Source of the DNA: Candidatus Omnitrophota bacterium
Lineage (GTDB): Bacteria; Omnitrophota; Gorgyraeia; Tantalellales; Tantalellaceae
DNA: 45,555 nt
Assembly (NCBI GenBank): GCA_024277375.1
Contig: JAJRVD010000045.1
Span: 1-45,555, forward strand
Reading direction: 5' to 3'
A model generated the notes under the pieces. It was not told the DNA's origin, searched no databases, and worked only from the letters and a program-made list of their open reading frames with translations. The position numbers were made by a program, and so were the translations under genes. Shown piece after piece: positions 7,486 to 32,666 of the stretch (its first letter is position 1; every line of letters starts with the position of its first letter).

Positions 7486-8108
7486 AAAAAGGATTAATGA
7501 TTGGCGGTGGCGGTCATGCCAGGGTTTTACTTGATATGCTCAAAAACTTTACCGATTACCGGATGGAAGGAATTCTTGACCCTAATATTGATAAGGGGAG
7601 CATGGTTGATTCCATTCCAATTCTTGGGGGCGACGACCTACTTGAGAGCTTTCTGGTGGAAGATATAAAAGCCGTTTTTATAGGTATTGGGAGTACAGGA
7701 GAGAATAGCCTAAGAACCAGACTGTATGATGAGGTTGCAGGAATGGGGTTTGATATACCATTCCTTATTCATTCAGATGCGATCGTTTCTTCTGGAGCGG
7801 TGCTTTCGAAAGGGGTGCAGGTGATGGCCGCGGCAGTAGTCCATGTTGGGGCCGAACTTGAAGAAAATTGCGTCATCAACACTGGCACCGTTGTTGAGCA
7901 TGATTGTGCTATTGGTAAACACTCATTTGTGGCTAGCGGGGCAATCTTATCTGGAGGGTGCGAGATAGGTAATGGCGTATTTATTGGAGCTGGGGCCACT
8001 GTTATTCAGGGAGTTAAGATTGGCAATGGTGCGGTGGTGGGTGCAGGAGCAGTTGTTCTAAAAGATGTTGCGGATAATGTTACTGTTGTCGGGGTTCCGG
8101 CAAAATGA
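7482..8108 (+). CDS. Sialic-acid-type O/N-acetyltransferase (NeuD/PglD-like, left-handed beta-helix)
   Basis: [14 protein letters not shown]-terminus and hexapeptide repeats ([33 protein letters not shown] end); 4-nt overlaps with both neighbours. Confidence 0.85.
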
Positions 8109-9154
8109 AACCGTTTATTATTGCGGAAGCAGGCATAAACCACAATGGTGATATTAATACTGCATATAAGCTTATTGATGTGGCTATTGATGCTGGAGCT
8201 GATTCCGTAAAGTTTCAGACTTTGAATACTGAAAAGCTTGTAAGTCGTTATGCACCAAAAGCGGAATATCAAGATAAAAATATCGGTGTCAACGATAGCC
8301 AGTTTGTGATGCTCAAAAAACTAGAGCTTTCTTGTTCTGAGTTTGAAAAACTTAAAGAATATTGCGATACAAAAGGTATACTTTTTCTTTCTACGCCGTT
8401 CGATGAAGAAAGCTCGGATTTTCTTGAATCTATCGGGATGAAAGTTTTTAAAATTCCGTCTGGAGAGGTTGCAAACAAACCTTTGATAGAGCATATCGCA
8501 AAAAAGGGGAAACCGATAATCCTCTCAACCGGGATGTCGTTTCTTGCCGAGGTAGAAGAAGCTATAGGGTGGATAAATGAATGCTGTGTTTCCGTAAGAA
8601 GCAAAGAGAAACTAGGGGACTACCGGTTTAGTGTTCCGTTAACTATTCTTCACTGTGTTTCAAACTATCCAACACCGCCGGAAGATGTTAACCTGCTCGC
8701 CATGAAAACCATGGAGGCCGCTTTTGGGCTTCCGGTTGGTTATTCCGACCATACTGCTGGGATAGAGATATCTGTTGGTGCAGTGGCTTTGGGAGCCATT
8801 GTCATAGAAAAGCATTTTACGCTCGATAAAAATATGGATGGCCCAGACCATAGTGCCAGTCTTGACCCTGCCGAATTAAAGGCTATGGTAAGTGCTATTA
8901 GGAATATGGAAAAGGCTTTGGGAGATGGTCTAAAGCAACCGGCTCCAAGCGAATTCAACGTTAGGGATGTCGCAAGAAAGAGCCTCGTCGCGGCGAGAGC
9001 AATAAAGGCTGGGGAAAAAATTAAAGAAGAGGATATAGTCATAAAAAGACCTGGCACCGGAATCCTTCCAAAACTCAGGGGGTCGGTAATTGGCACAAAA
9101 GCAACCCGTGATATAAGGGTAGATTCGGTGATTGTTCCGGAAGATTTTGAGTGA
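8105..9154 (+). CDS. legI: N-acetylneuraminate/legionaminate synthase with SAF domain
   Basis: [60 protein letters not shown]-terminal SAF-like segment ([22 protein letters not shown]). Confidence 0.9.
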
Positions 9155-10329
9155 TGCGCAAAATTGCAGTCGTAACAGGTTCTAGGGCTGAATACGGACA
9201 TCTCTATAGTGTGATAAAAGGCATTCATGAAGCTAAAGAACTCGAGCTTCAGCTTATAGTAACGGGAACGCACCTCTCTGAACGGTACGGTATGACAGTG
9301 CAGGAGATTATTGATGATGGTTTTCCGATTACAAAAAAAGTTAAAATACTCACCTCTTCCGATACAGGAGTGGGAGTGGCACAGGCGATGGGCAATGGGA
9401 TGATTGGCCTTTCTTTGGCGTATGAAAAATTAAATCCCGATATTCTTCTGGTACTTGGGGATAGGTTTGAGATATTTGCCGCCGTGGCAGCCGCATTGCC
9501 TTTGAATATACCTGTAGCGCATCTGCATGGAGGCGAGCTAACGCTTGGTGCTATTGACGAAATGTTTCGCCATGCGATTACGAAGATGAGTCACATCCAT
9601 TTTACTTCTGCAAAAGAGTACGCGCAACGACTTAGAAACATGGGGGAAAATCCTTCAAATATCTTTAATTTTGGCGCGCCGGGCCTTGATAGGATAATTA
9701 GTCTGGAACTTATGGATAAAAATAGACTCGCTGGGGATTTGAAAATACCTTCTGATAAGAACTGGGGGTTAGTAACGTTTCACCCTGTTACTGCTGAAGA
9801 AGCTGATGATGCTGAAAAAATGGAGAACCTGCTTGGTGCGCTTTGTAAATTTAAGGATATACACTGGGTGATTACCAAGCCTAATGCTGATGCTGGAAAT
9901 AGTAGGATACTGGAAAAAATCGACGGGTATGTAGCTAAGAGCGAGGGTAAAATCTCAGCGTTTACATCACTTGGTAGTTTGAGGTATTTATCAATGATGG
10001 GTCGTTGTAAAGTGGTTGTGGGTAATTCCTCGTCTGGGATTATAGAATCGGCATCATTTGGAGTTCCGGTTGTGAATATCGGCGATAGGCAAAAAGGTAG
10101 GGTAAGGCCCGAAAATGTTATTGATGTATCAGGTTATAATGGCAACGATATTGCTGATGCCATTAGAAGGGCGTTATCCAGTGAGTTTATTAAAAGAGCG
10201 GGAAGGGCCCAAAATCCTTATGGGGATGGCTGTTCAGGGGCAAAAATTGTAGAAAAGCTTAAAATGATTTCCTTGGAAGGGATTTTTAAAAAAGAGTTTT
10301 TTAATATGAAAATCGGCGGTGAAATTTAA
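9151..10329 (+). CDS. legG: UDP-N-acetylglucosamine 2-epimerase (hydrolysing), NeuC/LegG-like
   Basis: VTGSRAEYGHLYSVI, GDRFEIFAAVAAALPLNIPVAHLHGGELTLGAIDEMFRHAITKMSHIHFTS, VGNSSSGIIESASFGVPVVNIGDRQKGR. Confidence 0.9.
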   Translation: MMRKIAVVTGSRAEYGHLYSVIKGIHEAKELELQLIVTGTHLSERYGMTVQEIIDDGFPITKKVKILTSSDTGVGVAQAMGNGMIGLSLAYEKLNPDILLVLGDRFEIFAAVAAALPLNIPVAHLHGGELTLGAIDEMFRHAITKMSHIHFTSAKEYAQRLRNMGENPSNIFNFGAPGLDRIISLELMDKNRLAGDLKIPSDKNWGLVTFHPVTAEEADDAEKMENLLGALCKFKDIHWVITKPNADAGNSRILEKIDGYVAKSEGKISAFTSLGSLRYLSMMGRCKVVVGNSSSGIIESASFGVPVVNIGDRQKGRVRPENVIDVSGYNGNDIADAIRRALSSEFIKRAGRAQNPYGDGCSGAKIVEKLKMISLEGIFKKEFFNMKIGGEI

Positions 10330-11416
10330 AATGAAAATAGCAAAGTTGAAGGATATATCGGTAAGTCCTAGTGACCCTATAAAGGAACTCATGCAAAAGC
10401 TTACCGTGACGGCAGAAAAGATACTCCTTATCTTAGACCAAAGTGGGAAGTTGATCGGTACTATTACTGATGGTGATATAAGGCGTGGAATTATTGATGG
10501 GAGAAAATTTACAGATACTGCAGATACTGTGATGCAAACCAGTTTTATTTTTTTGAAAGATTCGGAATCTGACATTGAGGGTAAAGCGAAGAAGCTTATG
10601 TCTAAGTATGCGCTGAGCCATCTTCCGATTGTAGATATTGACGGGAAACCGATAGATATTATTTCACTAGTCGACTTGCTTGAAGTTGGCATAAAATCGC
10701 AAGATAAACCTCTATTTGAAACGCCTGTTGTAATCATGGCTGGAGGGAAGGGTACTAGGCTTGAACCATTTACCAACATTTTGCCCAAGCCTTTAATTCC
10801 GTTACACGACAAGCCTATTATCGAGCATATTATGGATCGCTATTACAAGCAGGGTTTTAATAACTTTTATATGGTTGTCAATTATAAAAAGGAAATTATT
10901 AAGGGCTATTTTAGTGAGAATGAGTTGCCGTATAAAATTCAATTTATTGATGAGAGTGAATATTTAGGCAGTGCTGGTGGAATTTCTCTTTTAAAAAATA
11001 GGATTAAGGAAACATTTATTATTACCAATTGTGATACGGTTCTTGATGGGAATTGCGGAGATATTCTTAGTTGGCATAAAGGGCGAGGCCATCTTTTTAC
11101 TATCATTGGATCTCATAGGGAGATGGTTTTACCGTACGGGGTTTTAGAGGTGAAAGATGGGGCTTTTGATATGATAAATGAAAAGCCTAAATATGATTTT
11201 TTGATAAACACAGGGACATATATTGTCGAACCTGAAGTATTCGAACTAATACCTGAAAAACAGCCGCTTGCAATGGATGTACTTATAACTAAAGTGAGTA
11301 AAATGGAGGGTAATCGTGTTGGAGTATATCCTTATTGGGGGGAGTGGTTTGATATCGGCCAGTGGGACGAATACCGAAAAAGCCTTGAGTCTTTTGAAGG
11401 CAAGATGGGATTCTGA
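10319..11416 (+). CDS. ptmE: CBS-domain nucleotidyltransferase, PtmE-like (aminosugar-1-phosphate guanylyltransferase type)
   Basis: N-terminal CBS pair (GTITDGDIRRGI) fused to MAGGKGTRLEPFTNILPKPLIPL nucleotidyltransferase; operon context. The more likely start is the ATG at 10331. Confidence 0.82.
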   Translation: MKFKMKIAKLKDISVSPSDPIKELMQKLTVTAEKILLILDQSGKLIGTITDGDIRRGIIDGRKFTDTADTVMQTSFIFLKDSESDIEGKAKKLMSKYALSHLPIVDIDGKPIDIISLVDLLEVGIKSQDKPLFETPVVIMAGGKGTRLEPFTNILPKPLIPLHDKPIIEHIMDRYYKQGFNNFYMVVNYKKEIIKGYFSENELPYKIQFIDESEYLGSAGGISLLKNRIKETFIITNCDTVLDGNCGDILSWHKGRGHLFTIIGSHREMVLPYGVLEVKDGAFDMINEKPKYDFLINTGTYIVEPEVFELIPEKQPLAMDVLITKVSKMEGNRVGVYPYWGEWFDIGQWDEYRKSLESFEGKMGF

Positions 11417-11440
11417 CATATCCTATCTATAATTTGAGTT

Positions 11441-12145
11441 GTGTATAAAAACTATCGTGTTCTTTGCGTAATCCCGGCAAGAGGCGGTTCCAAAGGGCTT
11501 CCAAGGAAGAACATTAAAAACCTTCTTGGCCGTCCTTTAATTTCTTATTCAATAGAGCATGCCAAGAAATCTTCTTATGTCGACAGGCTTGTAGTATCGA
11601 CAGATGATGAAGAAATTGCGGGACAGTCTATTAAATATGGAGCGGAAGTTCCGTTTATAAGGCCCATAGAACTTGCCGGAGATGATGTTGGTGCGATAGA
11701 TGTACTTTTGCATGCAGTTGGCTGGATAGAAAAAGAAGAAAGCGCGGAGTATGACATAATTATTTTGCTACATGCCACCTCGCCGTTGCGAACTCCTGAT
11801 GATATCGATAAGTGTGTTGAGACTATGATTGAGGGACAGGTTGATAATGTTTTCTCCGTGACAGAATCATCCCGTAACCCTTACTTCAATATGGTTGAAT
11901 GTGATGGTAAAACAATCAGGCTTGTGAAGGAAGGTAGCTTTACGACAAGGCAGTCGTCCCCAAAGGTGTTTGATATAAACGCGTCTGTTTATGTCTGGTG
12001 GACTGAAAAGCTGAAAAATGGGAAATCGATCTTTCTTGATAACAGTTCCATATACGAAATGCCAAAGGAGAGATCTGTTGATATTGATGATGAGATAGAC
12101 TTCCAACTGGCAGAAATGCTTTTGAATGAGAAACCTTCTAAATGA
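11441..12145 (+). CDS. legF: CMP-nonulosonate (legionaminate-type) cytidylyltransferase, NeuA/LegF-like
   Basis: VIPARGGSKGLPRKNIKNLLGRPLI, STDDEEIA, LLHATSPLR motifs. Confidence 0.88.
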   Translation: MYKNYRVLCVIPARGGSKGLPRKNIKNLLGRPLISYSIEHAKKSSYVDRLVVSTDDEEIAGQSIKYGAEVPFIRPIELAGDDVGAIDVLLHAVGWIEKEESAEYDIIILLHATSPLRTPDDIDKCVETMIEGQVDNVFSVTESSRNPYFNMVECDGKTIRLVKEGSFTTRQSSPKVFDINASVYVWWTEKLKNGKSIFLDNSSIYEMPKERSVDIDDEIDFQLAEMLLNEKPSK

Positions 12146-15815: not shown

Positions 15816-17204
15816 ATGCGAGTATTGCTTGTAGTTTATGACAACGGTTCTCATATCCATCAGTTCCCACAAGGGTTGGCCCATATTGCCAAGATTCTTA
15901 TGCTGGAGGGATATGAGGTCGAAATATACAGTCAAGATGTACACCATTATGCTGATGAGCACTTAAAACAGAAGCTGGATGAGGAAAAGTACGACGTAGT
16001 AGGTCTGAGCCTCATAGCAGGGTATTACCAATACAGGAAACTTTTAAAACTTTCTGATGTAATTAATAAGTCGAAGAACCGTCCGCTATATATTATTGGC
16101 GGTCACGGACCAAGCCCTGACCCTGAGTATTTCTTGAAAAAAACCGGTGCCGATATGATTGTTATGGGAGAGGGCGAGGAAACTGCAAAGGAACTCTTTC
16201 ATGCCATAGACAACAAAGAACCCTTAAGCGGCATCTTGGGAATAGCGTACAAAGATGGCGATGAGGTAATTATAAATAAAGAAAGACCGCTTATTCAAGA
16301 CATTGACAGCCTCCCGTTACCAGCATACGAACTATTTGATATAAGCCATTACAGGATTTTGCCCGCTATTATGCCGGGATCAGAGCCTACCGATTTCGTA
16401 ATGCCGGTGCTTTCAGGCAGGGGTTGTACATTTAAGTGCAATTTTTGCTACAGGATGGATAAAGGTTTTCGACCTCATTCGGCAGAGAGAATAATAGAGA
16501 ATATTTCGCTTCTACAAAACGACTACGGGATAAACTATATTAGCTTCGCCGATGAATTGTTGATGTCATCGGTTAGGAGAACGGAGGAGCTTTGCCATGC
16601 ATTCATGAAGTCTGGCCTTAGGTTCAAATGGGCTTGCAATGGCAGGCTGAATTATGCCAAGCTAGACCTTCTTAAACTAATGAAAAAAGCAGGATGTCTC
16701 TTCATAAACTATGGTATCGAGGCTATGGACAACCAGATACTTAAAAATATGGATAAGGCTCTTACGACGGACCAAGTTACAAAAGGGGTAGAGGCGACCT
16801 TACAGGCTGGTATTAGTCCTGGGTTAAATATCCTTTTTGGGAATATAGGTGAGAATAGGGAAACGCTTAGAAAAGGCGTGGACTTTTTACTGAAGTATGA
16901 CGATGGGGTGCAGATGCGAACCATAAGACCTGTTACACCATATCCAGGTTCGCCTCTTTATTATCACGCAATTGAAAAGGGGTTCCTTAAAGATTGTGAA
17001 GATTTTTATGAAAATAAACATACTAATTCAGATTTAATGGCAGTTAACTTTACCGAGCTGAGCGATGAAGAGTTTTATCAGGCGTTGTATGAAGCGAATA
17101 TGATGCTCTTGGATAATTATATAGCTAGGCGACAGAAGCGAAATTCTGCGACCCTAAAAAAACTATATATCGAAAGAGATTCCAGCTTTCGTGGATTTCG
17201 CTAG
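15816..17204 (+). CDS. B12-binding-domain radical SAM protein
   Basis: N-terminal Rossmann-like B12-binding region (YDVVGLSLIAGYYQYR...IIGGHGPSPDPEYF...GEGEET) and RGCTFKCNFC radical SAM cluster motif. The track start at 15780 is an alternative. Confidence 0.87.
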   Translation: MRVLLVVYDNGSHIHQFPQGLAHIAKILMLEGYEVEIYSQDVHHYADEHLKQKLDEEKYDVVGLSLIAGYYQYRKLLKLSDVINKSKNRPLYIIGGHGPSPDPEYFLKKTGADMIVMGEGEETAKELFHAIDNKEPLSGILGIAYKDGDEVIINKERPLIQDIDSLPLPAYELFDISHYRILPAIMPGSEPTDFVMPVLSGRGCTFKCNFCYRMDKGFRPHSAERIIENISLLQNDYGINYISFADELLMSSVRRTEELCHAFMKSGLRFKWACNGRLNYAKLDLLKLMKKAGCLFINYGIEAMDNQILKNMDKALTTDQVTKGVEATLQAGISPGLNILFGNIGENRETLRKGVDFLLKYDDGVQMRTIRPVTPYPGSPLYYHAIEKGFLKDCEDFYENKHTNSDLMAVNFTELSDEEFYQALYEANMMLLDNYIARRQKRNSATLKKLYIERDSSFRGFR

Positions 17205-17867
17205 ATGACTGGGCCAGAAAAGTGGAAATATAAGAATCTTGTTTTTGATTTTGATGGGGTGATTGTCGAAACAAATGAGATTAGATTCGAAGGGTTCCGC
17301 AAGCTCTTTACTGAGTATCCCTCAGCTAAAGTTCAAGAACTGGTTTCCTATGCAAGGGCCAATGGTGGTATTTCCAGATATGCAAAGATTAGGTATTTTT
17401 TTGAAAAAGTTCTTGGCACAGATATTTCGGAGGTTAGTGTGAACAAGCTAGCTCTACAATATTCAGAGATAGTGAAAGGTCAAGTTGTTAGTGCTGAGGC
17501 TGTGAGCGGCTCTCTTGAATTTTTTGAAACAAATTATGGTAAATATAATTTCGCCATTATTTCAGGATCTGACGAGAAAGAGTTGCGCGAGGTTTGCAAG
17601 AAGAGAAAGATTGACCAGTTTTTTTTGGAGATTCTTGGCTCCCCCACTAATAAGGCTAATAATTTTGAAAAATTATTTAAAAGCACCGGTTGGGAGAAAA
17701 ATGAAACACTTTTTATTGGTGATTCCGTTAATGATTATGAGGCGGCAAGAGTTTTTGGTGTTTACTTCGTTGGGAGAAAAAGTGGGCTGGAGAGCTGGAG
17801 GGCTTTTAAAGTCCCTGTAATCAATGATATAATGGAGCTTCAGAGGCTGTTGGCTGTTAAGCTGTAA
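17205..17867 (+). CDS. HAD-superfamily hydrolase (phosphatase)
   Basis: FDFDGVIVETNEI motif I, ISGSDEKEL motif II, LFIGDSVNDYEAA motif IV. Confidence 0.88.
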   Translation: MTGPEKWKYKNLVFDFDGVIVETNEIRFEGFRKLFTEYPSAKVQELVSYARANGGISRYAKIRYFFEKVLGTDISEVSVNKLALQYSEIVKGQVVSAEAVSGSLEFFETNYGKYNFAIISGSDEKELREVCKKRKIDQFFLEILGSPTNKANNFEKLFKSTGWEKNETLFIGDSVNDYEAARVFGVYFVGRKSGLESWRAFKVPVINDIMELQRLLAVKL

Positions 17868-17897
17868 TTGGCAAAAACCAACAGCTTTAAAAATTTT
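17846..17897 (+). terminator. Possible stem-loop/attenuator after the HAD gene
   Basis: GCTGTTGG (17846-17853) pairs with CCAACAGC (17878-17885); a nested alternative stem AGCTG..TTGG/CCAA..CAGCT is followed by TTTAAAAATTTTT. Confidence 0.35.
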
Positions 17898-17928
17898 TAC
17901 ATATAATAACCAGAAGGTGAGGGTAGTT

Positions 17929-18447
17929 ATGAAAAGGGCAGTGATTGTTACGGCTCAGAATTTCCAGGATGAAGAGTTTACTTATCCATACTACAGGCTT
18001 CTTGAGGAAGGGTACAGCGTTGATGTTGCGACACCTGATCTTATTGAGGTTTTTGGTAAGTATGGTGTTCCAGCTAGAGCAAATAAAAATACGATGGATC
18101 TTAAAGAGTCCGACTACGATCTTGTCATCATTCCGGGAGGGTTTGAAGCTCCAGACAGGGTGAGAATAAGAAAAGAGGTATTGAAGTTTGTTAAAGATAT
18201 GCACGATGCCGGCAAGGTAGTGGCCGCGATATGTCATGGCCCGTGGGTATGTATTTCAGCAGGGATAATGAAAGGCAAGAAGGCTACAGGTTTTATGGCA
18301 ATTGCTGATGATCTGCGTAATGCCGGAGCTGATTATCAGGAAGCGGATGTTGTAATCGACGGCAACCTTATAACATCACCTCACTACAAGAATAATGGCG
18401 ATTTTATGAAGGCTACGATTAAATTAACAAATAAAAGTAGCCTGTAA
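17929..18447 (+). CDS. DJ-1/PfpI-family protein (class I glutamine amidotransferase-like)
   Basis: KRAVIVTAQNFQDEEFTYPYYRL and VAAICHGPWV nucleophile-elbow Cys motif. Track start (GTG 17917) trimmed to ATG 17929. Confidence 0.88.
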   Translation: MKRAVIVTAQNFQDEEFTYPYYRLLEEGYSVDVATPDLIEVFGKYGVPARANKNTMDLKESDYDLVIIPGGFEAPDRVRIRKEVLKFVKDMHDAGKVVAAICHGPWVCISAGIMKGKKATGFMAIADDLRNAGADYQEADVVIDGNLITSPHYKNNGDFMKATIKLTNKSSL

Positions 18448-18465
18448 TGACTGATATATAAAATT

Positions 18466-21030
18466 ATGATACGACGTATACCAAATGACTCTGGGGAGAG
18501 TTATCGTCCTATTGATGAGTTAGAAAAAGGCGAGGTTTATGACTATAGTGATGTTATAGTTAAAAAGCCTTGGGGTTATGAATACCTTGTGTTCGAGAAT
18601 AAGCATGTGGCTATCTGGCTATTGCATATTGCTCGCTTGCGTAAGACCTCAATGCATTGCCATCCAAATAAGAAGACAGGTTTAATTCTACTCCATGGTG
18701 AAGCAACCTTCAGTCATGGAGACGGAGATATTAAGCTGAGTGCTACGGATGGAGTAGTTATAGAGGAAGGCGCTTTTCATTCAACCGAAGCTTCAAGCTC
18801 GCATCCCATTTCTCCATTTTCGGAAAATGGTATATGGGTAATGGAAATTGAATCTCCTCCTTTAAAGACAGACCTTGTTCGCAAGCAGGATGAATATGGC
18901 AGAGCAGGTAAGTCCTACGAGGGTACTGATAATATGGTTTTCGAACCGCAGGAAATTCTAAAATTTGCTGATGTCAAACATGGTGAAGTGATGCAAAAAA
19001 GACTTCAGGATTCGCTGTTTACCGTAAGGAGAGGTGGTTTTGATATCGATGTTAATCCGCCTTCACCGGACGCGCTTGTGTCGATTATTGGCATGGATGA
19101 TGATGAAGCTTCCGATAATCCGAGCCTTGCTATAGGAGATCTTGTTCCTTTTACGGAGTTTTGCGAAAAAACAAAAGATGAAGACTTGTCTAAGTATTTA
19201 ATTCTTACAATTGAAAGGTCAAAAGCATTGGTAAAAGTATCTGATTATATCTTTTCCTACATTGCCAGTTTGGGCGTTAAGGATGTATTTGCGGTTTCAG
19301 GTGGCGGTGCGATGCATTTAGTCGATTCGCTTGGGAGTAACAAGGATCTTAACTATGTGGCCGTTCACCATGAACAGGCAGGTGCGATGGCGGCCGAAGG
19401 GAATTCGCGTATTACCGGCAAGCCGGGGGTGGCGTTAGTAACGTCTGGACCAGGTGGAACTAACGCTATCACCGGCGTATGCGGAGCGTGGATCGATTCA
19501 ATTCCAACCATATACATCTCAGGGCAGGTTACCTCTGATACTCTGATAAAGGATACAGGGCTTAGACAGTTCGGGATACAGGAATCCAATATCGTGGAAC
19601 TTGTAACCCCAATCACAAAGTATGCAGTAACCGTTGAAGATTCAAAAAGAATAAGGTATGAAGTTGAAAAGGCTGTCTATATTGCTACCCATGGGAGGCC
19701 GGGTCCCGTGTGGCTGGATATTCCTCTAAACGTTCAGAGTGCCATAGTTAATGTAGAAGAGCTAGAATCGTTTAGCCCGGAGGAAGAAAAGCCGGATGCC
19801 AAAACTCTTAAAAGAGAGGTTGCTAAGTGTATTGAACTTCTAAAGAAAGCAAAAAGGCCGGTAATAATAAGCGGATATGGGATAAGGCTTGCAGGGGCTG
19901 AAAAAGATTATGTTGAGCTTGTCGAGCGGTTGGAGGTGCCAATAATATCTTCGTGGACGTCGAGCGATCTCTTGCCGACAGACCATGAAAATTATGTTGG
20001 ACGTGGCGGCATTATTGGAGATAGAGCAGGGAACTTTACTGTTCAAAATTCCGATCTTCTTTTGATAATCGGGTCACGCATGTCCATTCCACAAGTCGGG
20101 TATAACTACAAGATATTTGCAAGGGGTGCCAGAAAAATCATGGTCGATATTGCAGATGAAGAGCTTAATAAGCCATCCATTTCGCTTGACCTCTCGATAA
20201 AACGCGATGCAAAAGAGTTTATAGACGAGCTTAATAAACAGTTGAAAGAGGAGAATGTTTCACTGGATATAGGTGAATGGAGAAGTAAGACAGCTGAATG
20301 GAAAAGGAAGTATCCGGTTGTTCTCCCAGAATACAAGGAGAACAAGAATTACATAAATTCATATCACTTTATTGATGTTCTTTCAGAGAAGCTGGATAGC
20401 AGTGCGGTTGTTGTTACTGATATGGGTACCAGCTTTACATGTACGATGCAAACTTTTCGGACAAAGGCGGGACAAAGGCTGTTCACCTCGTCAGGTCATG
20501 CATCAATGGGCTTCGGGTTGCCCGGGGCGATAGGGGCGTGCTATGGACGGGGTAAACGGAAAACCATTTGTATCGCTGGTGATGGCGCATTGCAGATGAA
20601 CATCCAAGAGCTGGAGACGGTGGCTCATAACAAACTTCCAATAATTCTGTTTGTATTGAACAATCGTGGGTACTTGACCATAAAACTGATGCAACAAAAT
20701 CACTTTGGTAAATATATTGGTACCGATCCAAGTAGCGGAGTGACTTGTCCTGATATCATTAAACTTGCCAAAGCACATGGAATTGATGGTGAAAAAGTTT
20801 CCAATCAAAAAGAGCTGGATGAGAGGATAGACGATATTCTTGCCAAGCAGGGTCCTTATATCTGTGAAATTGTTATGTCGGAAGATCAGGCTCTTATACC
20901 GAGGGTTTCATCGTTGAAGAAAGCCGATGGTTCCATAGTCTCCAAACCACTTGAAGATATGTTCCCGTTTCTGGATAGGGATGAATTTAACAACAACATG
21001 GATGTTGATACAGTAGAAGTCCTCAGGTGA
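18466..21030 (+). CDS. Cupin domain fused to TPP-dependent acetolactate-synthase-like enzyme
   Basis: N-terminal about 240 aa: KPWGYEYLVFENKHVAIW...MHCHPNKKTGLILLHGEATF...EEGAFHSTEAS (cupin). C-terminal: FAVSGGGAMHLVDSL, VHHEQAGAMAAEG, VTSGPGGTNAITGVCGAWIDSIPTIYISGQV, TPP motif GDGALQMNIQELETVAHNKLPIILFVLNN. Confidence 0.9.
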   Translation: MIRRIPNDSGESYRPIDELEKGEVYDYSDVIVKKPWGYEYLVFENKHVAIWLLHIARLRKTSMHCHPNKKTGLILLHGEATFSHGDGDIKLSATDGVVIEEGAFHSTEASSSHPISPFSENGIWVMEIESPPLKTDLVRKQDEYGRAGKSYEGTDNMVFEPQEILKFADVKHGEVMQKRLQDSLFTVRRGGFDIDVNPPSPDALVSIIGMDDDEASDNPSLAIGDLVPFTEFCEKTKDEDLSKYLILTIERSKALVKVSDYIFSYIASLGVKDVFAVSGGGAMHLVDSLGSNKDLNYVAVHHEQAGAMAAEGNSRITGKPGVALVTSGPGGTNAITGVCGAWIDSIPTIYISGQVTSDTLIKDTGLRQFGIQESNIVELVTPITKYAVTVEDSKRIRYEVEKAVYIATHGRPGPVWLDIPLNVQSAIVNVEELESFSPEEEKPDAKTLKREVAKCIELLKKAKRPVIISGYGIRLAGAEKDYVELVERLEVPIISSWTSSDLLPTDHENYVGRGGIIGDRAGNFTVQNSDLLLIIGSRMSIPQVGYNYKIFARGARKIMVDIADEELNKPSISLDLSIKRDAKEFIDELNKQLKEENVSLDIGEWRSKTAEWKRKYPVVLPEYKENKNYINSYHFIDVLSEKLDSSAVVVTDMGTSFTCTMQTFRTKAGQRLFTSSGHASMGFGLPGAIGACYGRGKRKTICIAGDGALQMNIQELETVAHNKLPIILFVLNNRGYLTIKLMQQNHFGKYIGTDPSSGVTCPDIIKLAKAHGIDGEKVSNQKELDERIDDILAKQGPYICEIVMSEDQALIPRVSSLKKADGSIVSKPLEDMFPFLDRDEFNNNMDVDTVEVLR

Positions 21031-21055
21031 AAATATTTAACCGGATTGAAATTCG

Positions 21056-22591
21056 ATGGCGACTGTTAATCTTTTAGACCTTGCATTGGTAAGCAACCCA
21101 GATACAGATAATGTTGCGGTTGCTCTTAAAGATATAGCTAAGGGAATCATTGTACCGCTTGCAAACGGTGACAGCTTGAAAGTTAGAGAGAATATTTTAA
21201 AGTCGCACAGGTTTGCAACCCGGAAAATCGGAAAAGGTGACTATCTGATGCAATACGGCCAACCCTTTGGACGTTCGATGGGGATTGAAGCTGGAGAGGC
21301 GGTATCGCCGAAAAATGTGGAAAATGTTTTGCCTAAAATAGATACCAACAGTCATGTTGATCCAGAAAAAACTTTGTATGATTCCGAGCTAACAGAAAAG
21401 AAATTTCTTGGGTATAAAAGAGCCACAGGGAAGGTTGGCACCAGAAACTACTATCTTGTTGTACCCACATCGATGTGCGTTAGTGAGACGGCGCTTCAGG
21501 TATCTCAATTACTGGATAGTACTTCGGAATACTGTAATATAGACGGAATCGTTGCGATTCCAAATACTGAAGGATGCGGGTGCGCATCTACAGGACAGAT
21601 AGAACGTTTCTTGAGAGTCCTCAAAGGTTACATTACCCATCCCAATGTGGGGGGGTGCCTAATAATAGATTTGGGTTGCGAGCAAACTAACTATCAAGTC
21701 GTGAGGGAATATCTCGATAACGGGGTAAACGGCATTCCGGTTGACTGGTTGACTGTTCAGGAATCTGGTGGCACCCGGATGACTATTGAAGAAGGCAAAA
21801 AGTTAATAGAGGGAGTGCTTTCGGAAGTTAATAAAATTGAAAGAACCCCTGTTTCGATATCCAACCTTGTTTTGGGGACAGAATGCGGGGCCTCAGATTC
21901 ATTTTCTGGCATTACTGCGAACCCGTTAATAGGCAGGGTGGCGGATATGATTGTGCGAGGCAAGGGAAAGGCGATTCTATCTGAAATTCCAGAAATGATT
22001 GGAACGCTTGGTGCGTTCTTGCCAAGATTCAGGAGTATGGAAGTTCTGGATAAGTTCAAAAATGTCCAAAAATGGTACGAAGAGTTGGCGCAAAAGCTTG
22101 GGCTTACACTTGAAGATAATCTTGTAGATAAAAATATTGAAGGTGGTTTGATAAATAATGTTTTGAAAAGTTTGGGGGCGGTTATCAAAGGAGGCTCTAC
22201 AGCCATTGAAGATGTGGTGGAGTATGGGGAATCTCTTACAAAGGATGGCCTGACTATTATGCAGGGCCCGGGTGGAGACCCAGAGTCGGTTACCGGAATG
22301 GTTGCAAGCGGCGCAAATATAGTTTGCTTTTCCACAGGTTTTGGCGCGACTTCCGGGAATGCTATATGTCCGGTGATAAAAATTTCCTCGAATGACGAAG
22401 TTTTTGATAAACTTCCTGAAGATATTGACTTTAACGCTGGTGCGATTGTTAGTGAAAAGGCTGATGTTGGTCATCTGTCCGATGAACTGTTGCAAAAGGT
22501 CATAGATGTAGCATCTGGAGAAAAAACATGGTCAGAGAAGTGGAAGCAACGACAATTTCAGGTATGGACAGCAGGGAAATTGCCTCTATAA
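21056..22591 (+). CDS. UxaA/GarD-family (altronate/galactarate dehydratase-like) protein
   Basis: NVAVALKDIAKG N-terminal SAF-like region, GYKRATGKVGTRNYYLVVPTSMCVSETA, NTEGCGCAS, GCEQTNY, LGTECGASDSFSGITANPLIGR, MQGPGGDPESVTGMVASGANIVCFSTGFGATSGNAICPVIKIS. Confidence 0.9.
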   Translation: MATVNLLDLALVSNPDTDNVAVALKDIAKGIIVPLANGDSLKVRENILKSHRFATRKIGKGDYLMQYGQPFGRSMGIEAGEAVSPKNVENVLPKIDTNSHVDPEKTLYDSELTEKKFLGYKRATGKVGTRNYYLVVPTSMCVSETALQVSQLLDSTSEYCNIDGIVAIPNTEGCGCASTGQIERFLRVLKGYITHPNVGGCLIIDLGCEQTNYQVVREYLDNGVNGIPVDWLTVQESGGTRMTIEEGKKLIEGVLSEVNKIERTPVSISNLVLGTECGASDSFSGITANPLIGRVADMIVRGKGKAILSEIPEMIGTLGAFLPRFRSMEVLDKFKNVQKWYEELAQKLGLTLEDNLVDKNIEGGLINNVLKSLGAVIKGGSTAIEDVVEYGESLTKDGLTIMQGPGGDPESVTGMVASGANIVCFSTGFGATSGNAICPVIKISSNDEVFDKLPEDIDFNAGAIVSEKADVGHLSDELLQKVIDVASGEKTWSEKWKQRQFQVWTAGKLPL

Positions 22592-22626
22592 CATTTTCCA
22601 TGATAAGGTATCTCTTGGAGTGATTA

Positions 22627-23919
22627 ATGGATCAACGTAAAGATAAAAATGGCAGGTCAAACCTTGAAACGAATATCCCTGATGAAATAAGTACCGACAA
22701 GCGTGGTGGGCATAAGGTAAGGACTGGAAGAAAAATTGTGGATCGCCACAAGCTTGATCAGGTTCAGGTGAGCGAATCTGGTGAAAAGCATCCCAACACA
22801 TTTACCGGACATACCTACAAGAACAAAGGTGAAAAATTCAGGCTGGATGGGCATAAGCTTCTTTATCACCTTGACATAGTGAATGCCTGGAAAAAAGGGG
22901 AGCGGGTTGCCCCTATCTCAATAGATATGGGGTTAACAAAGTTCTGCAACACCGCCTGTATCTACTGCATCGGTGTTACGCAGGGAGGCTTTAGCCGTGG
23001 TTCAATGATTGAGCGTGATGCCCTTATGCGATTTATAGAAGACTGTGGGCGATTGGGTGTGAAGTCTGTTGCCTTCATAGGTGATGGTGAGCCGACGATG
23101 AACCCAGCAATGTACGACGCTATTGTACTTGGTAAGAAAAACGGGATAGATATAGGTATCGGTACCAACGGTATCGAACTGGACATGAGTAGGGCGCACG
23201 ACATTCTGAGAGATGCTACATACATCAGAATTAATTTAAGTGCTGGAACGCCGAAAGGGTTTAAAAAAATTCATCAATCTCCTGTAGAGAAATTTGATAC
23301 TCTCTGCGAAAAGATGGCTAGCCTTGTAAAGATTAAAAAAGAGAATGACTATCCATGTACTATCGGCATCCAAATGGTTTTGATTCCAGAAAATTTTGGT
23401 GAAGTGATAAGCCTCACTGAGTTGGGCGCGAAGCTTGGGGTTGACTATCTCCAAATCAAGCAATGCTCCGATACTGAATATAAGGAACTGGGGGTGAACC
23501 CCGCAGATTATGAAAGAGCAAGAGACATTCTTAAAAAAGCAGAGACGTACAACACCGATGAATTTTTCGTGAAGGTTAAGTGGAATAAAATAGATATTCT
23601 CAGCGATACTGAAAACTATAAAGGTGGTTTCAGGAAATATGATATTTGCTATGGAACCCCGCTACTTGGGCAAATAAGCGGAAATGGAAAGGTTTACCCT
23701 TGTGGTCCATTCTTCGAAAAACAAAGGTTCCTTATGGGGGATGTAAACAAGGAGTCATACTACGATATTGTTAAAAGCGACAAGTATTGGGAAGTTCAGC
23801 AGGATATTATAGATAACGTGGACGTTCATTATGACTGTACTGTCGGTTGCCGGCAGGATTATATCAACAAGTTTCTCTGGGATGTTAAAAACCCACCGGA
23901 TCACACCAACTTTATCTGA
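22627..23919 (+). CDS. Radical SAM protein with C-terminal SPASM-like cysteine cluster
   Basis: KFCNTACIYC (CxxxCxxC), GDGEPTMNP, C-terminal CYGTPLLGQISGNGKVYPCGPF...HYDCTVGCRQDY. Confidence 0.88.
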   Translation: MDQRKDKNGRSNLETNIPDEISTDKRGGHKVRTGRKIVDRHKLDQVQVSESGEKHPNTFTGHTYKNKGEKFRLDGHKLLYHLDIVNAWKKGERVAPISIDMGLTKFCNTACIYCIGVTQGGFSRGSMIERDALMRFIEDCGRLGVKSVAFIGDGEPTMNPAMYDAIVLGKKNGIDIGIGTNGIELDMSRAHDILRDATYIRINLSAGTPKGFKKIHQSPVEKFDTLCEKMASLVKIKKENDYPCTIGIQMVLIPENFGEVISLTELGAKLGVDYLQIKQCSDTEYKELGVNPADYERARDILKKAETYNTDEFFVKVKWNKIDILSDTENYKGGFRKYDICYGTPLLGQISGNGKVYPCGPFFEKQRFLMGDVNKESYYDIVKSDKYWEVQQDIIDNVDVHYDCTVGCRQDYINKFLWDVKNPPDHTNFI

Positions 23920-23931
23920 ATGCTATAATTT

Positions 23932-24699
23932 ATGGAAAATTCAAAGCTTGATATATCTATAATCATGCCTGCCTTGAACGAACAGGCGAATATAATTGAT
24001 GCAATTGATGACACGAACAAAGCGTTTGATGAATACTCCATTAACGGTGAAATCATCGTTATGAATGATGGGAGTACGGATGATACTAGGCGGCTGGTGG
24101 AAGAGGAAATGAAAAGCAATAGCAGAGTTCGTCTGGTAAACCATGAAAAACCTTACGGTCTGGGAGGGTCATTCTGGGATGGCGTGGATCATGCTAATGG
24201 CGGCGTGATTTTGTGCATACCCGGCGATAATGAAAATGACGTTCCAGAGATTTTACGGTACTTTAAATTACTTGACCATGTTGATATGGTTATTCCGTTC
24301 GTTTATAACAAAGAGGTGCGGTCTCTCTTTAGAAATGGCCTCTCATTCCTGTATCGCTTTATAATAAATTCTACTTTTGGGGTTTATTTAAATTATACCA
24401 ACGGTACCGTGTTGTACAGAAAATCGGTCTTGGAAAAATTGGAGTATCGAAGTTCGAGTTTCTTTTTTCAAACCGATATACTTATTCGGCTATTAAAGCG
24501 CAACTATCTTTTTGCAGAGGTTCCGTATCGTCTGGATGTTAGAAACGTTGGTGAATCAAAGGCGGTGTCATTTCCTTCCTTGTTGCAGGTTGTTAGAGGC
24601 TACTTAAGACTTGTGAAAGATATTTATGGAAAATCAAAGTCGAAAGCTAAAATATTTCCAGATGATACTATGTCTGCTAAAAGGCATAACTCAGATTAA
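23932..24699 (+). CDS. Family 2 glycosyltransferase
   Basis: ISIIMPALNEQANIIDAID, VMNDGSTDDTRRLVEEE, ILCIPGDNENDVPEI; GT-A fold. Confidence 0.88.
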   Translation: MENSKLDISIIMPALNEQANIIDAIDDTNKAFDEYSINGEIIVMNDGSTDDTRRLVEEEMKSNSRVRLVNHEKPYGLGGSFWDGVDHANGGVILCIPGDNENDVPEILRYFKLLDHVDMVIPFVYNKEVRSLFRNGLSFLYRFIINSTFGVYLNYTNGTVLYRKSVLEKLEYRSSSFFFQTDILIRLLKRNYLFAEVPYRLDVRNVGESKAVSFPSLLQVVRGYLRLVKDIYGKSKSKAKIFPDDTMSAKRHNSD

Positions 24700-24714
24700 T
24701 CGGTTTCTGGTTAT

Positions 24715-25236
24715 ATGAAAATCTTTTTATGGGGGAATGCCCTTCTGATTCTCAGTTTTCTTATACATCTTGTAATTTGGAAAATACGAGTTCCGCAACG
24801 ACAGACAAAAACTCTTTTTACCCTGTTTGGTATGTTACTGTTTCTGGAAATCCCTCTTATTGATATTGTTTCCGACCACTTCCCCGCTCTTGCAGAATAT
24901 AGGCTAGATAATCTTATGGAATACGCGCACGTTTCCCTCTATTACCTTTGCCTGTCATTAATGTACATAGTTTTTTATGGAGCTCTTGAGGTTGATAGTC
25001 CTTCGCTGGTGATGGTCTTAAGAGTTGCAAAGGAGGGGGTGCAAGGTTTGCCTATAAGCGAGTTCTACGAATCGATGAACGATGATCTTCTGGTAAAGCC
25101 TCGTGTCGAAAATCTTGTTCGGGATAAGCAGGCTATTTTTGAAAACGGCAAGTATAAAATAAGTGAAAAGGGACGCTCATTCATATCGATTTTTATTTTT
25201 TACAGGAAACTACTCAATGCAGGGAAGGGCGGATAG
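24715..25236 (+). CDS. Small integral membrane protein with possible C-terminal winged-helix-like segment
   Basis: 173 aa; about 3-4 N-terminal TM helices, then LPISEFYESMND..VKPRVENLVRDKQAIFENGKYKISEKG. Confidence 0.7.
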   Translation: MKIFLWGNALLILSFLIHLVIWKIRVPQRQTKTLFTLFGMLLFLEIPLIDIVSDHFPALAEYRLDNLMEYAHVSLYYLCLSLMYIVFYGALEVDSPSLVMVLRVAKEGVQGLPISEFYESMNDDLLVKPRVENLVRDKQAIFENGKYKISEKGRSFISIFIFYRKLLNAGKGG

Positions 25237-25773
25237 TTGGAACAGATGTCAACTAACTTAACTCAGCTACTGATCCCTATCTTTGCAATGGTTGTGAATG
25301 TTCTTGTGCATATTCTTGGATATAGGTACCTGTTGAGGGGTGCGTTGTTGAAATCGTTACTAGTAGGTTTTGCTTCGGGGTTTCTGATGATAACCTTCTG
25401 CGAATCATACCTCTTCTTGCACGGTGATGCAGGTCTTTGGGAAACTTTTCCATTGCTTTTAGTAAATCAGGCGATTTACTTTTCACTTTGGTACTGTTAC
25501 TTTAACTTTGTAAATATGGGAGAGACTGCCCGCAGAGTTAGACTTATGAGAGAGCTGATTGAACAGACCGAGGGGTTGACGTATGATGAACTTCTCCAAA
25601 AGTATAATGCACAAGAAATGGTTAAGCGAAGGATTGGGAGACTTTTGAGTAAATCTCAGATTATCGAAAAGGATGGCAGGTTTTATTCCGGTAAGCCGAC
25701 CGTTCTTTTTATAGCGAAGGTTGTTATATTCATGAAGCTATTTGTTTTAGGCAAAAAGAGCGAGTACGAGTAA
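25237..25773 (+). CDS. Small integral membrane protein, same architecture as upstream neighbour
   Basis: 178 aa; TM helices followed by LTYDELLQKYNAQEMVKRRIGRLLSKSQIIEKDGRFYSGK; starts TTG directly after the upstream stop (alternative ATG 25246). Confidence 0.7.
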   Translation: MEQMSTNLTQLLIPIFAMVVNVLVHILGYRYLLRGALLKSLLVGFASGFLMITFCESYLFLHGDAGLWETFPLLLVNQAIYFSLWYCYFNFVNMGETARRVRLMRELIEQTEGLTYDELLQKYNAQEMVKRRIGRLLSKSQIIEKDGRFYSGKPTVLFIAKVVIFMKLFVLGKKSEYE

Positions 25774-25777
25774 CAGC

Positions 25778-26362
25778 TTATCCGTTTTTGTGAGCAATAA
25801 TCACGTCCAAAAGGCAGTGAAGTATTGCTTGATGAAGAATTTCAACCGGGCCGTAACTGCTAGAGCCAACATAGAAGTTGATTTTTCCCATTTTTGAGAG
25901 TGGGTTTTCGGAGTTAAACCCGGAAAGGGTTATGAGGTTGCATCCTTTTGAAATTGCGACTTTCGCGCCACGAATAATATTCTCTGATTTTCCGGAACTG
26001 CTTATCGCTATCAGAAGGTCTCTGTTATCTGCAAATACCTCTAGAGGTTTTTCAAACAGGCATTCAAATCCGTAGTCGTTTCCAATGCAAGTTAATAACG
26101 AGGAGTCGTTAAAAGCTGTTGCTTTTATCCCGCCGTTTTTCCAAAAATCTGTAGCCATATGGCTGGAAAAAGCGGCACTCGCGCCGTTTCCTATAAATAT
26201 CACCTTCCCGTTTGAATCGGCCGTTGACAGTATTATCTCCGCGGCTTTTTCTATTCCGCAAAAAACCTCAATTTTCTCGCTGTCCTTGCCAGTTGCGTTG
26301 ATAGCGTTCATCAAGGTTTTTAACTCTTCAAAATATTTTTCTGCACTTTTTCGCATTTTCAA
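25778..26362 (-). CDS. SIS-domain phosphosugar isomerase, GmhA-like (divergent)
   Basis: FIGNGASAAFSSHMATDFWKNGGIKATAFNDSSLLTCIGNDYGFECLF, AISSSGKSENI, EILHQAILHCLL. Confidence 0.85.
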   Translation of the reverse strand: MKMRKSAEKYFEELKTLMNAINATGKDSEKIEVFCGIEKAAEIILSTADSNGKVIFIGNGASAAFSSHMATDFWKNGGIKATAFNDSSLLTCIGNDYGFECLFEKPLEVFADNRDLLIAISSSGKSENIIRGAKVAISKGCNLITLSGFNSENPLSKMGKINFYVGSSSYGPVEILHQAILHCLLDVIIAHKNG

Positions 26363-26364
26363 CC

Positions 26365-27897
26365 TTACTTCAATATGGAATGTATGAACTCAAGGAGTTC
26401 GTATTTTTCAACCGAACTTTTGTTGCCGACAATTTGAACGGCCAAAGCTCCGACAGCGTTGCCGATGAAGGATGCAACTTCCATAGGCACCCCTGTCGTT
26501 ACACATGGAGCGGTATATGCAAAAAATGCGTCACCAGCTCCAACAGTATCAACTACTTTCGAGGAAAAAATTGGGGTTCTGCAAGCATCCCGATTATCAT
26601 TTAGCGCTATAGATCCTTTTTTTCCAAGTGTGACGATCAGATTTTTTGCGTCCAGATTTTCTAAAAGTTTTTTGGCAACAGTTTCTATTTCTGTTGTTTT
26701 TTCCTGAGTGGCAAGCCTGACCTCCGGTTCATCAAGGCATAGAAAAGTAGCAGAATTGTATTTCGTGATTAGGTTGAAGCCTCTATTGGCTCCGTTTGTC
26801 TGAGTGTTGACTGCTAGCGTTTTACTGATTTTTTCAAGTGTATTGATTATCTTTTTTGAAATCAGGCCATGCCCAAAGTCCGAGACGAGTAGTAAATCGA
26901 AATCAGGAACAGCGGATTCAAGATATTCGATTATTATATCCTCATCGCTTTCGCATATATTGTCTCCATTGAGGTAGTTTATTTCAAATAGCTTTTGATT
27001 GAGATATTGATTTATGTACCTTTTTTTCACTATGGTTGGTCCGTCATTCCGATAGAAAAAATGTGGCGAAACGTTTGGTTTTAAATTGTTCCGAATAAAC
27101 TCTTCCTGTGAGTTCTTCTTGCCTAGAAGAGAAACCAATTGCACACTATCGCATAAGCTTGCGATATGGTTGGCTACCGCAAAGGCTCCGCCATTAAACA
27201 CTTCGTGGTCTAAAGCCTTGTTTACCACAAGATGTGCTTTGGCTGATTTACCCATCGATTCGCAGTAGTGATATTCGTCAAGAATGCCGTCTCCTATTAG
27301 CAGGACTTTCAGATCGCTAAGATTATTAAGGGTCTCTGAAATATTTTGGAAAGAATATTTGTTTTTAAAGTTTTCCAGATAATTTCTGGTTTCATCAGGG
27401 TAAATATTCATGAAGCTATTAACAAAAGTAGAGGAGCTGAATGAAAAGCCTTCTGTTTCATGAATTTTTGCTTTGCTTTGATTGAGTTCTTTTTCTATAT
27501 TACCTATCTTTTCGTCAATTTTCTGTTCGCGTTCTTTGTGTGTTTTGCCTTTTGCAAAAACATCAGGGTTAAGAGCCTTAACGCATTCGAAAGGTGTTTC
27601 ATCATTAACGATGCTTACAAAGTCGACCTGCTGTAATGATGCAAGGTTTTCGGCGCGCAAGGCATCGGGAAAAACTGGCCTCCCAGGCCCTCTACGTACA
27701 TCTACATCTCTTATGACAGTGGCGACAAGGATGTCTCCCTCACTTCTTGCTGAATTCAAATGCTTGATGTGTCCAGGGTGGATGAGGTCGAAGACTCCAT
27801 GAGTTTGAACAACTGTTTTTCCCTCTTTCTGTAGAGTTCTTATTTTCTCAGTAAGGTTGCTAAAAGGGATGATTTTGCTTTTGATACTTTCTTCCAT
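26365..27897 (-). CDS. Bifunctional HldE-like protein in reversed order: N-terminal nucleotidyltransferase, C-terminal PfkB sugar kinase
   Basis: N-terminus VVQTHGVFDLIHPGHIKHLNSARSEGD (HxGH nucleotidyltransferase); C-terminus VLLIGDGILDEYHY...FNGGAFAVANHIA...KVVDTVGAGDAFFAY (PfkB kinase). Confidence 0.88.
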   Translation of the reverse strand: MEESIKSKIIPFSNLTEKIRTLQKEGKTVVQTHGVFDLIHPGHIKHLNSARSEGDILVATVIRDVDVRRGPGRPVFPDALRAENLASLQQVDFVSIVNDETPFECVKALNPDVFAKGKTHKEREQKIDEKIGNIEKELNQSKAKIHETEGFSFSSSTFVNSFMNIYPDETRNYLENFKNKYSFQNISETLNNLSDLKVLLIGDGILDEYHYCESMGKSAKAHLVVNKALDHEVFNGGAFAVANHIASLCDSVQLVSLLGKKNSQEEFIRNNLKPNVSPHFFYRNDGPTIVKKRYINQYLNQKLFEINYLNGDNICESDEDIIIEYLESAVPDFDLLLVSDFGHGLISKKIINTLEKISKTLAVNTQTNGANRGFNLITKYNSATFLCLDEPEVRLATQEKTTEIETVAKKLLENLDAKNLIVTLGKKGSIALNDNRDACRTPIFSSKVVDTVGAGDAFFAYTAPCVTTGVPMEVASFIGNAVGALAVQIVGNKSSVEKYELLEFIHSILK

Positions 27898-27907
27898 TCT
27901 GCTAACG

Positions 27908-28381
27908 TTATCTTAGATATTTGTTGATGAGTTCTGTAGATGAAAAAACGATTTCGTGTGTAACCTTCATTTCAGCCCCGATATCATCTAGGATATCAAA
28001 CTCTTTTTGTATTTTACCTGTTTTGTCTTTTAGCTTTTCAAATTCCTGCCCTTTAACGTAGTAGTCCGGTTTTAAGAGGCGAAGAGTTTCTTCAGCTGTT
28101 GGCCATTTGTTTATTGAAACATAGTCGACGCATTCCAAAGCTGCAATGGATTCGGCCCTTAGATTTTGATTGTATGCTGGTCTGCCGGGGCCTTTGTCGA
28201 CATATTCATCGGGGGTAAGAGTTACTACTAGAACATCTCCCATAAGTTTTGCCGCCTGAAAGTGTTTGATGTGGCCCGGGTGCATAAGGTCAAAGCATCC
28301 GTGGCAATGGACTACTTTTTTGCCAGCGCCCTTAAGGCTTCTAATTTCTTGAGACAGTTCTTCTATTTCTTTAATTTTCAT
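27908..28381 (-). CDS. Stand-alone RfaE domain II-like nucleotidyltransferase
   Basis: VVHCHGCFDLMHPGHIKHFQAAKLMGDVLVV..KGPGRPAYNQNLRAESIAALECVDYVSI. Confidence 0.87.
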   Translation of the reverse strand: MKIKEIEELSQEIRSLKGAGKKVVHCHGCFDLMHPGHIKHFQAAKLMGDVLVVTLTPDEYVDKGPGRPAYNQNLRAESIAALECVDYVSINKWPTAEETLRLLKPDYYVKGQEFEKLKDKTGKIQKEFDILDDIGAEMKVTHEIVFSSTELINKYLR

Positions 28382-31757: not shown

Positions 31758-32666
31758 TTGTTTTTGAATACGATGGAGAATTTGATGCAGGGTAATCGCT
31801 TTCCGACTGTAATTGCAGAAATCGGTTGCAATCATAAGGGTGAGATGAAAATTGCCCGTGAAATGATCAAAATTGCTGCACAATTTTGTAAAGCGGATTT
31901 CGTTAAATTCCAGAAGCGGAACCCGAAAGAGCTTTTAACAGAGGTCGAATATAATGCACCGCATCCCAACGAGTATCACTCCTATGGTGATAGCTATGGC
32001 GAACATCGAGAATTTCTGGAATTTTCTATTGACCAGCATAAACAACTGAAGGATTGGTGTGAAGAATGGAAGATTGGCTATTCCGCTTCGGTATGGGACA
32101 TTACCTCCGCCACTGAAATGATTTCTCTTGAGCCAGAGCATGTCAAGGTTCCATCCGCTACAAACCTGAACTTCAAACTTCTTGGTCTGCTTTGCGATAG
32201 TTATGGCGGTGATATCCATATTTCATTTGGGATGACGAGCAGAAAGGAAGAGGAAGATATAGTAGGTTTTTTAAAAAAGAGAGGACGGAATAAAGATCTC
32301 GTTATCTACAGCTGTACATCCGGGTACCCTGTGGCGTTTGAGGATATTTGTCTTCTTGAGATAAGCAGGATAAGAGAAACTTTTGGCAATGATGTTAAGG
32401 CGATAGGGTTTTCCGGCCATCATCTTGGTATTGCGGCCGATGTAGGAGCGATTACCCTTGGAGCCGAAGTTGTTGAGCGGCACTTTACCTTAGACAGGAC
32501 ATGGAAGGGGACTGATCATTCTGCAAGCCTTGAACCTGATGGCATGAGGAGACTTGCAAGGGATGTTAGAAATGTTAAAAAGGCTCTTACCTGTAAAAGT
32601 GAGGAAATACTTCCTGTCGAAAAAGTTCAAAGAGAAAAGCTGAAACGGAGCCGCGAGGAAAACTAG
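31758..32666 (+). CDS. Second NeuB-family sialate/nonulosonate synthase, short form lacking the SAF domain
   Basis: VIAEIGCNHKGEMKIAREMIKIAAQFCKADFVKFQKR, VKVPSATN, GFSGHHLGIAADVGAITLGAEVVERHFTLDRTWKGTDHSASLEPDGM; ends soon after the barrel. Confidence 0.87.
   Translation: MFLNTMENLMQGNRFPTVIAEIGCNHKGEMKIAREMIKIAAQFCKADFVKFQKRNPKELLTEVEYNAPHPNEYHSYGDSYGEHREFLEFSIDQHKQLKDWCEEWKIGYSASVWDITSATEMISLEPEHVKVPSATNLNFKLLGLLCDSYGGDIHISFGMTSRKEEEDIVGFLKKRGRNKDLVIYSCTSGYPVAFEDICLLEISRIRETFGNDVKAIGFSGHHLGIAADVGAITLGAEVVERHFTLDRTWKGTDHSASLEPDGMRRLARDVRNVKKALTCKSEEILPVEKVQREKLKRSREEN

Follow-up and report, generated by a model that had tools for sequence, protein, structure and literature searches.

A recurrent cupin-thiamine diphosphate enzyme cassette in an Omnitrophota glycan locus is a candidate route to an unusual branched or extended sugar

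A contig of 45,555 nucleotides from a Candidatus Omnitrophota bacterium (C32, analysed whole and called the window here; genome 2.07 Mb, 95.7% complete) carries nine plus-strand open reading frames (ORFs) at 15816-25773, among them a gene for a cupin fused to a thiamine diphosphate (ThDP) lyase. We propose, with a probability of about one half, that the cassette built around this fusion forms carbon-carbon bonds for an unusual glycan sugar, either C-branched or chain-extended. The nine genes are a mosaic and not one fixed operon. Their core is the series DJ-1, cupin-ThDP fusion and UxaA; the HAD gene belongs to a wider cupin-ThDP cassette, and the radical S-adenosylmethionine (SAM) gene of SPASM type, the GT2 gene and, in part, the small membrane protein genes M1 and M2 belong to a second, wider module seen in many genomes of the phylum.

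In the fusion protein, Pfam TPP_enzyme N, M and C domains span residues ~257-802, preceded by about 250 residues with no Pfam match; this N-terminal region is predicted to fold as a cupin (mean predicted local distance difference test (pLDDT) score 74), and its top Foldseek matches include KdgF and other cupins. The best solved relative of the ThDP domain is 8RPH (448 bits), which is JanthE (PMC12188165), followed by acetolactate synthase at 296 bits. JanthE is YerE-like; such enzymes take acyl units from 2-oxo acids and join them to ketones, YerE doing so on a sugar, and the family is known to build C-branched sugars (PMC12247030). The window domain shares with JanthE an IPQxGY stretch and a C-terminal signature. 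By positions counted on the alignment (the chain numbering is one higher), P293 and Y297 of JanthE are kept, V121, Y268 and K567 are replaced by I, I and R, and GDG stands where JanthE has CDG. In a tree, the window domain groups with those of two related genomes, G198 and G217 (100/100), separate from acetohydroxyacid synthase (AHAS). By both score and tree the domain is best assigned as YerE/JanthE-like rather than AHAS. A role as AHAS or in branched-chain amino-acid synthesis is rejected in view of the bit scores (396 for the fusion against a curated AHAS cut-off of 538), the tree and a separate acetolactate-synthase-like gene elsewhere in the genome, at C12. In a plasmid search, the best matches among the matches listed were AHAS-like.

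The fusion protein, used as query against ~85,000 species genomes, returned loci in Pacearchaeota, Curtissbacteria, Parcubacteria, Acidobacteria and other groups. A ThDP enzyme adjoins the cupin in all 16 readable cupin loci, a DJ-1 gene is present in 14 of 17 and a HAD_2 gene lies nearby in 13 of 17. The cupin is fused to two ThDP architectures, YerE/AHAS-type and E1-alpha. In four loci of the window's own phylum (L133-L136), a gene for a cupin-E1-alpha fusion stands directly ahead of one for E1-beta, and HAD is present too, as is DJ-1 wherever seen; in L023, L025 and L026 the cupin is a separate gene beside E1-type genes. That the cupin is fused to two ThDP architectures so distant from each other strongly suggests a joint function of cupin and ThDP enzyme. 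The ThDP half of the fusion has lost its GDG in L002 (1023-5210), L003 (7423-11818), L020 (56-4437) and L061 (3900-6677), and a second YerE-like protein that looks intact (GEG...NN) follows directly in the first three and lies further away in L061. These arrangements resemble a pairing of one degenerate with one catalytic partner, which might form an alpha/beta heteromer.

Few genomes of the window's phylum have the cupin (8 of 285), and the order DJ-1, cupin-ThDP, UxaA is kept in three genomes of different families: that of the window (G000), G217 and G309. DJ-1 copies 74-78% identical adjoin the fusion in G198, G217 and G309; in G198 the order is SPASM2, DJ-1, cupin-ThDP, and then the contig ends. 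The initial annotation, which took the nine genes as one unit, had named a failure to co-occur in other genomes as grounds for abandoning that view. The core trio recurs in these three genomes, and to that extent the unit stands; the remainder divides into the HAD gene of the wider cupin-ThDP cassette, the second module and a B12-binding radical-SAM gene with only generic relatives.

Table 1. Genes of the nine-gene run and the convergent heptose-type genes. M1 and M2 are the two small membrane proteins; CTl is the separate adenylyltransferase-like protein.
Feature	Coordinates	Strand	Remarks
B12-binding and radical-SAM protein, 462 residues	15816..17204	+	nearest solved structure AprD4
HAD_2 phosphatase-like protein	17205..17867	+	HAD_2 domain; DFD and GDSVND
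DJ-1/PfpI-family protein	17917..18447	+	GTG start; ATG 17929 alternative
Cupin fused to YerE/JanthE-like ThDP lyase	18466..21030	+	cupin ~residues 30-165; ThDP ~255-854
UxaA/GarD-family sugar-acid dehydratase	21056..22591	+	GD_AH/UxaA domains, weak SAF
Twitch/SPASM radical-SAM protein, SPASM1 group	22627..23919	+	Radical_SAM and SPASM; conserved Cys280
GT2 glycosyltransferase	23932..24699	+	nearest to polyprenyl-phosphate sugar transferases
Small membrane protein M1, without known family	24715..25236	+	GT2-M1-M2 recurrence
Small membrane protein M2, without known family	25237..25773	+	GT2-M1-M2 recurrence
SIS/GmhA-like phosphoheptose isomerase relative	25778..26362	-	below NCBIfam cut-off
HldE-like kinase/nucleotidyltransferase	26365..27897	-	swapped domain order, below cut-off
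Heptose-1-phosphate adenylyltransferase-like protein (CTl)	27908..28381	-	below cut-off

The single direction and the abutting or short spacing described in the initial annotation are all present, the spacers measuring 0, 58, 18, 25, 35, 12, 15 and 0 bases (the second measured to in-frame DJ-1 position 17926, or 49 if measured to the GTG at 17917). Domain and motif checks likewise bore out the domains it named and their intact motifs: CX3CX2C in both radical-SAM proteins, the HAD motifs, and the Cys-His of DJ-1, where a Gln occupies the position of PH1704 Glu12. In the fusion, ThDP Glu303, GDG (705-707) and NN are intact, as are cupin H64, H66 and H105. A ribosome-binding-site-like stretch, AAGAAAGGG, lies upstream of start 15816, and promoter and terminator scans gave no signal above chance level. 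GC content is flat along the run, so there is no compositional sign of recent transfer.

Strong relatives of the SPASM-type protein occur in 51 of 285 genomes and fall into two groups, SPASM1 (that of the window) and SPASM2. They mark a recurring module, with variations, of CTl-HldE-SIS or GT9, SPASM2, a ThDP enzyme, GT2, SPASM1, M1 and M2. The ThDP slot is filled by E1 alpha/beta or a split transketolase, sometimes by a YerE-like enzyme. A ThDP gene lies within 5 kb of the SPASM gene in 41 of the 51 loci, and several of the other ten are short contigs or contig ends; a Transket_pyr domain lies within 5 kb in 12 of 13 genomes (the window's excluded), against ~2% expected from 50 such domains in ~26 Mb of 14 genomes. 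The closest relatives of the window SPASM protein (62-70%) adjoin a cupin-ThDP fusion (G217), a transketolase (G176) and an E1 (G247), the G217 copy being a SPASM1 at 70% directly after UxaA. In G309, DJ-1, cupin-ThDP and UxaA sit after SPASM2 in the slot where E1 or transketolase is otherwise found; in both G309 and G198, SPASM2 is directly upstream of DJ-1, and DJ-1-cupin-ThDP fills the ThDP slot. E1, transketolase and YerE-like enzymes interchange beside related SPASM genes; they are the three kinds of ThDP enzyme for which addition to ketones is known (PMC12247030). HldE-SIS lies upstream of SPASM2 in many module loci, with the order CTl-HldE-SIS-SPASM2-ThDP in L093, L120 and L124. GT2 copies within the module are 48-60% identical, and GT2-M1-M2 is repeated there and in L012, L063 and L075. 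By eye, the C-terminal stretch of each of M1 and M2 (24715-25773) is winged-helix-like; a structure prediction for M1 reached pLDDT 50 and was not used.

These neighbourhoods also bear on whether the trio (with or without HAD), the SPASM-GT2-M1-M2 genes and the B12 radical-SAM gene are mere neighbours, each serving a different building block. G217 has no GT2, M1 or M2 after its SPASM gene, SPASM1 of G309 is absent or very divergent (23%), and the B12 radical-SAM protein is generic, all as such independence would predict. It is nevertheless unlikely given SPASM1 directly after UxaA in G217, SPASM2 directly before DJ-1 in G309 and G198, and the swapping of ThDP types around the same SPASM genes. 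For the B12 radical-SAM gene itself, membership in the cassette is uncertain: kin genomes hold only generic relatives at ~30%, leaving its candidacy as a conserved core member unsupported, and one relative adjoins DJ-1, cupin-ThDP and HAD in L001.

The name SPASM, as the initial annotation gave it, did not hold for the 22627-23919 product: its auxiliary cysteines number just four (C341, C359, C404 and C408), the twitch pattern with one cluster. CX3CX2C and the auxiliary CX17C...CX3C are invariant in 73 sequences (29 SPASM1, 44 SPASM2); Cys280 is found in 29 of 29 SPASM1 and 0 of 44 SPASM2 sequences. In NeoN a cysteine is the hydrogen donor (PMC10991966), HygY gains dehydrogenase activity upon mutation of a single cysteine according to the title of a reference in PMC10991966, and BtrN is a twitch dehydrogenase acting on a carbohydrate-like cyclitol (PMC9012708). 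By analogy, SPASM1 proteins, with their invariant Cys280, may be NeoN/HygY-like epimerases, and SPASM2 proteins BtrN-like dehydrogenases that create a ketone. A search for significant sequence relation between the window protein and a solved twitch carbohydrate enzyme found none.

The UxaA protein has both GD_AH_second and GD_AH_C domains and matches GarD (6u7l) over its full length at 201 bits, and falls below the equivalog cut-off for GarD, a galactarate dehydratase (259 versus 731 bits). Across the phylum, relatives occur in only 4 of 384 genomes; those of G217 (53% identical) and G309 (56%) directly follow the cupin-ThDP gene, and the fourth (G185, 32%) lies elsewhere. Of the YerE-like loci, 15 of 39 lie beside HpcH/HpaI, 4-hydroxy-2-oxovalerate-aldolase-like or NeuB genes, the seven aldolase loci weighing most, as NeuB may serve nonulosonate synthesis instead. 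The products of all these families are 2-oxo-3-deoxy or 4-hydroxy-2-oxo acids, and a UxaA dehydratase turns an aldonate into a compound of the 2-oxo-3-deoxy-acid class. Since ErwE favours donors of the 2-oxo-3-deoxy or 4-hydroxy-2-oxo-acid type (PMC12247030), the same class as the UxaA product, donor supply is the simplest reading of UxaA.

Alternatively, a UxaA dehydratase, a DJ-1 glyoxalase and an acetolactate-synthase-like enzyme could make up a sugar-acid catabolic cassette that lies in a glycan locus by chance. The UxaA/GarD and AHAS families are indeed mainly catabolic or central-metabolic, and the G185 relative stands beside an ORF that by eye resembles a sugar-acid dehydrogenase. We regard this as very improbable, given the JanthE-like ThDP domain, the separate gene at C12 and the position of the trio in the ThDP slot of the radical-SAM module in G309; no UxaB-, UxaC- or KdgK-type partner was found among the window proteins scanned.

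In the carbon-carbon bond-forming pathway that we favour, UxaA would dehydrate an aldonate to a 2-oxo-3-deoxy acid donor, and the YerE-like half of the fusion would decarboxylate this 2-oxo acid and add the acyl anion to the carbonyl of a sugar intermediate. The acceptor would probably be heptose-derived and the product C-branched or chain-extended. Cupin, DJ-1 and HAD, whose association with the ThDP enzyme is observed, may process its substrate or product, for example by isomerisation or dephosphorylation; twitch radical-SAM enzymes would oxidise or epimerise the sugar, and GT2 with M1 and M2 would transfer the sugar, perhaps onto polyprenyl phosphate. The heptose-type genes CTl-HldE-SIS (25778-28381) are convergent with the nine-gene run in the same neighbourhood. 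The HldE-like protein has its two domains in the opposite order to the HldE model, nucleotidyltransferase first and PfkB kinase second, and the nucleotidyltransferase at 27908-28381 is additional to it.

A rival reading, with chain extension in place of branching, would have the acyl unit added to an aldehyde, at sugar C1 or on a sugar phosphate, giving a higher-carbon ketose or ulosonic acid that HAD would dephosphorylate and a nucleotidyltransferase activate. Conservation of HAD, the nearby heptose-type kinase and nucleotidyltransferase genes, and replacement by transketolase-type enzymes, whose normal reaction is aldose extension, would all fit. This version is possible but doubtful, as the closest characterised ThDP relatives take ketones and YerE-like cousins in the phylum lie within CDP-dideoxysugar (cytidine diphosphate) loci typical of branching. 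These cousins lack the cupin; in L062, TIGR02623 and RfbH score over their cut-offs.

Several observations weigh against the pathway we favour. The physiological substrate of JanthE itself is not known (PMC12188165), and in the tree the window ThDP clade branches deeply and separately within the YerE-like radiation and is no sister of JanthE. Nothing in the 95.7% complete genome scores above the curated cut-off for CDP-glucose 4,6-dehydratase, a threshold below which the L062 relative also falls, and the genome therefore probably lacks the classical YerE acceptor; a classical yersiniose/CDP-dideoxysugar route is unsupported for the window, whereas the cupin-less cousins do fit it. At E<=1e-50 the window genome shows a single SPASM-type gene, which leaves the proposed ketone-forming step unaccounted for there. 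Function in SPASM/twitch proteins is hard to infer from sequence similarity (PMC6231123), and the heptose-type proteins score under their equivalog cut-offs (GmhA 87 versus 265 bits, HldE 196 versus 521 bits).

All the enzymes come from known families, and sugar branching by ThDP enzymes is established. The window shares with YerE, ErwE and JanthE the ThDP family (by score and tree) and a glycan locus, with glucose-1-phosphate cytidylyltransferase, RfbH and 2-oxo-acid aldolases encoded in related loci of the phylum; it differs in its N-terminal cupin fusion, its DJ-1, HAD and UxaA partners, its radical-SAM neighbours and the lack, in the genome, of a CDP-glucose 4,6-dehydratase scoring above cut-off. 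The interchange of three ThDP kinds at one module position parallels antibiotic sugar branching by alpha-KADH2 (E1 alpha/beta) and transketolase-type enzymes, whereas the loci here are for surface glycans, beside heptose-type and twitch radical-SAM genes. The UxaA protein resembles altronate and galactarate dehydratases (UxaA/GarD) over its full length but sits in a biosynthetic setting. With BtrN, NeoN and HygY the window twitch protein shares CX3CX2C and the four auxiliary cysteines, Cys280 of SPASM1 being a candidate hydrogen donor, without the significant relation to a solved enzyme noted above. The suggestion that these enzymes lie outside any known route was too strong, in view of the YerE/JanthE-like ThDP domain and the adjoining heptose-type genes; the open-access literature searched held no description of the gene set, of the cupin-ThDP/DJ-1/HAD(/UxaA) cassette or of its radical-SAM setting.

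More tentatively, we suggest an undescribed, phylum-wide glycan system: twitch radical-SAM enzymes would ready a heptose-type sugar for carbon-carbon bond formation by any of three interchangeable ThDP enzymes, and the cupin-ThDP/DJ-1/HAD(/UxaA) cassette would be a self-contained form of it, with a range extending from Archaea to several bacterial phyla. If the favoured pathway is right, C-branched or chain-extended sugars would have a further route, coupled to radical-SAM chemistry and assisted by a cupin, UxaA dehydration would be a new donor supply for ThDP biocatalysis, and an unseen sugar would be predicted in surface glycans of the whole phylum. The swapping of three ThDP kinds at one genomic position makes the shared reaction directly testable.

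Elsewhere in the window, a legionaminic-acid-type set at 6337-12145 comprises a DegT aminotransferase, a hexapeptide acyltransferase, NeuB, a UDP-GlcNAc 2-epimerase, a CBS-NTP transferase and a CMP transferase. A second NeuB and a fused cytidylyltransferase-HAD protein at 31758-33833 probably represent a second nonulosonate route, and an HmuY-like protein (44381-45091) lies at the edge of the glycan locus.

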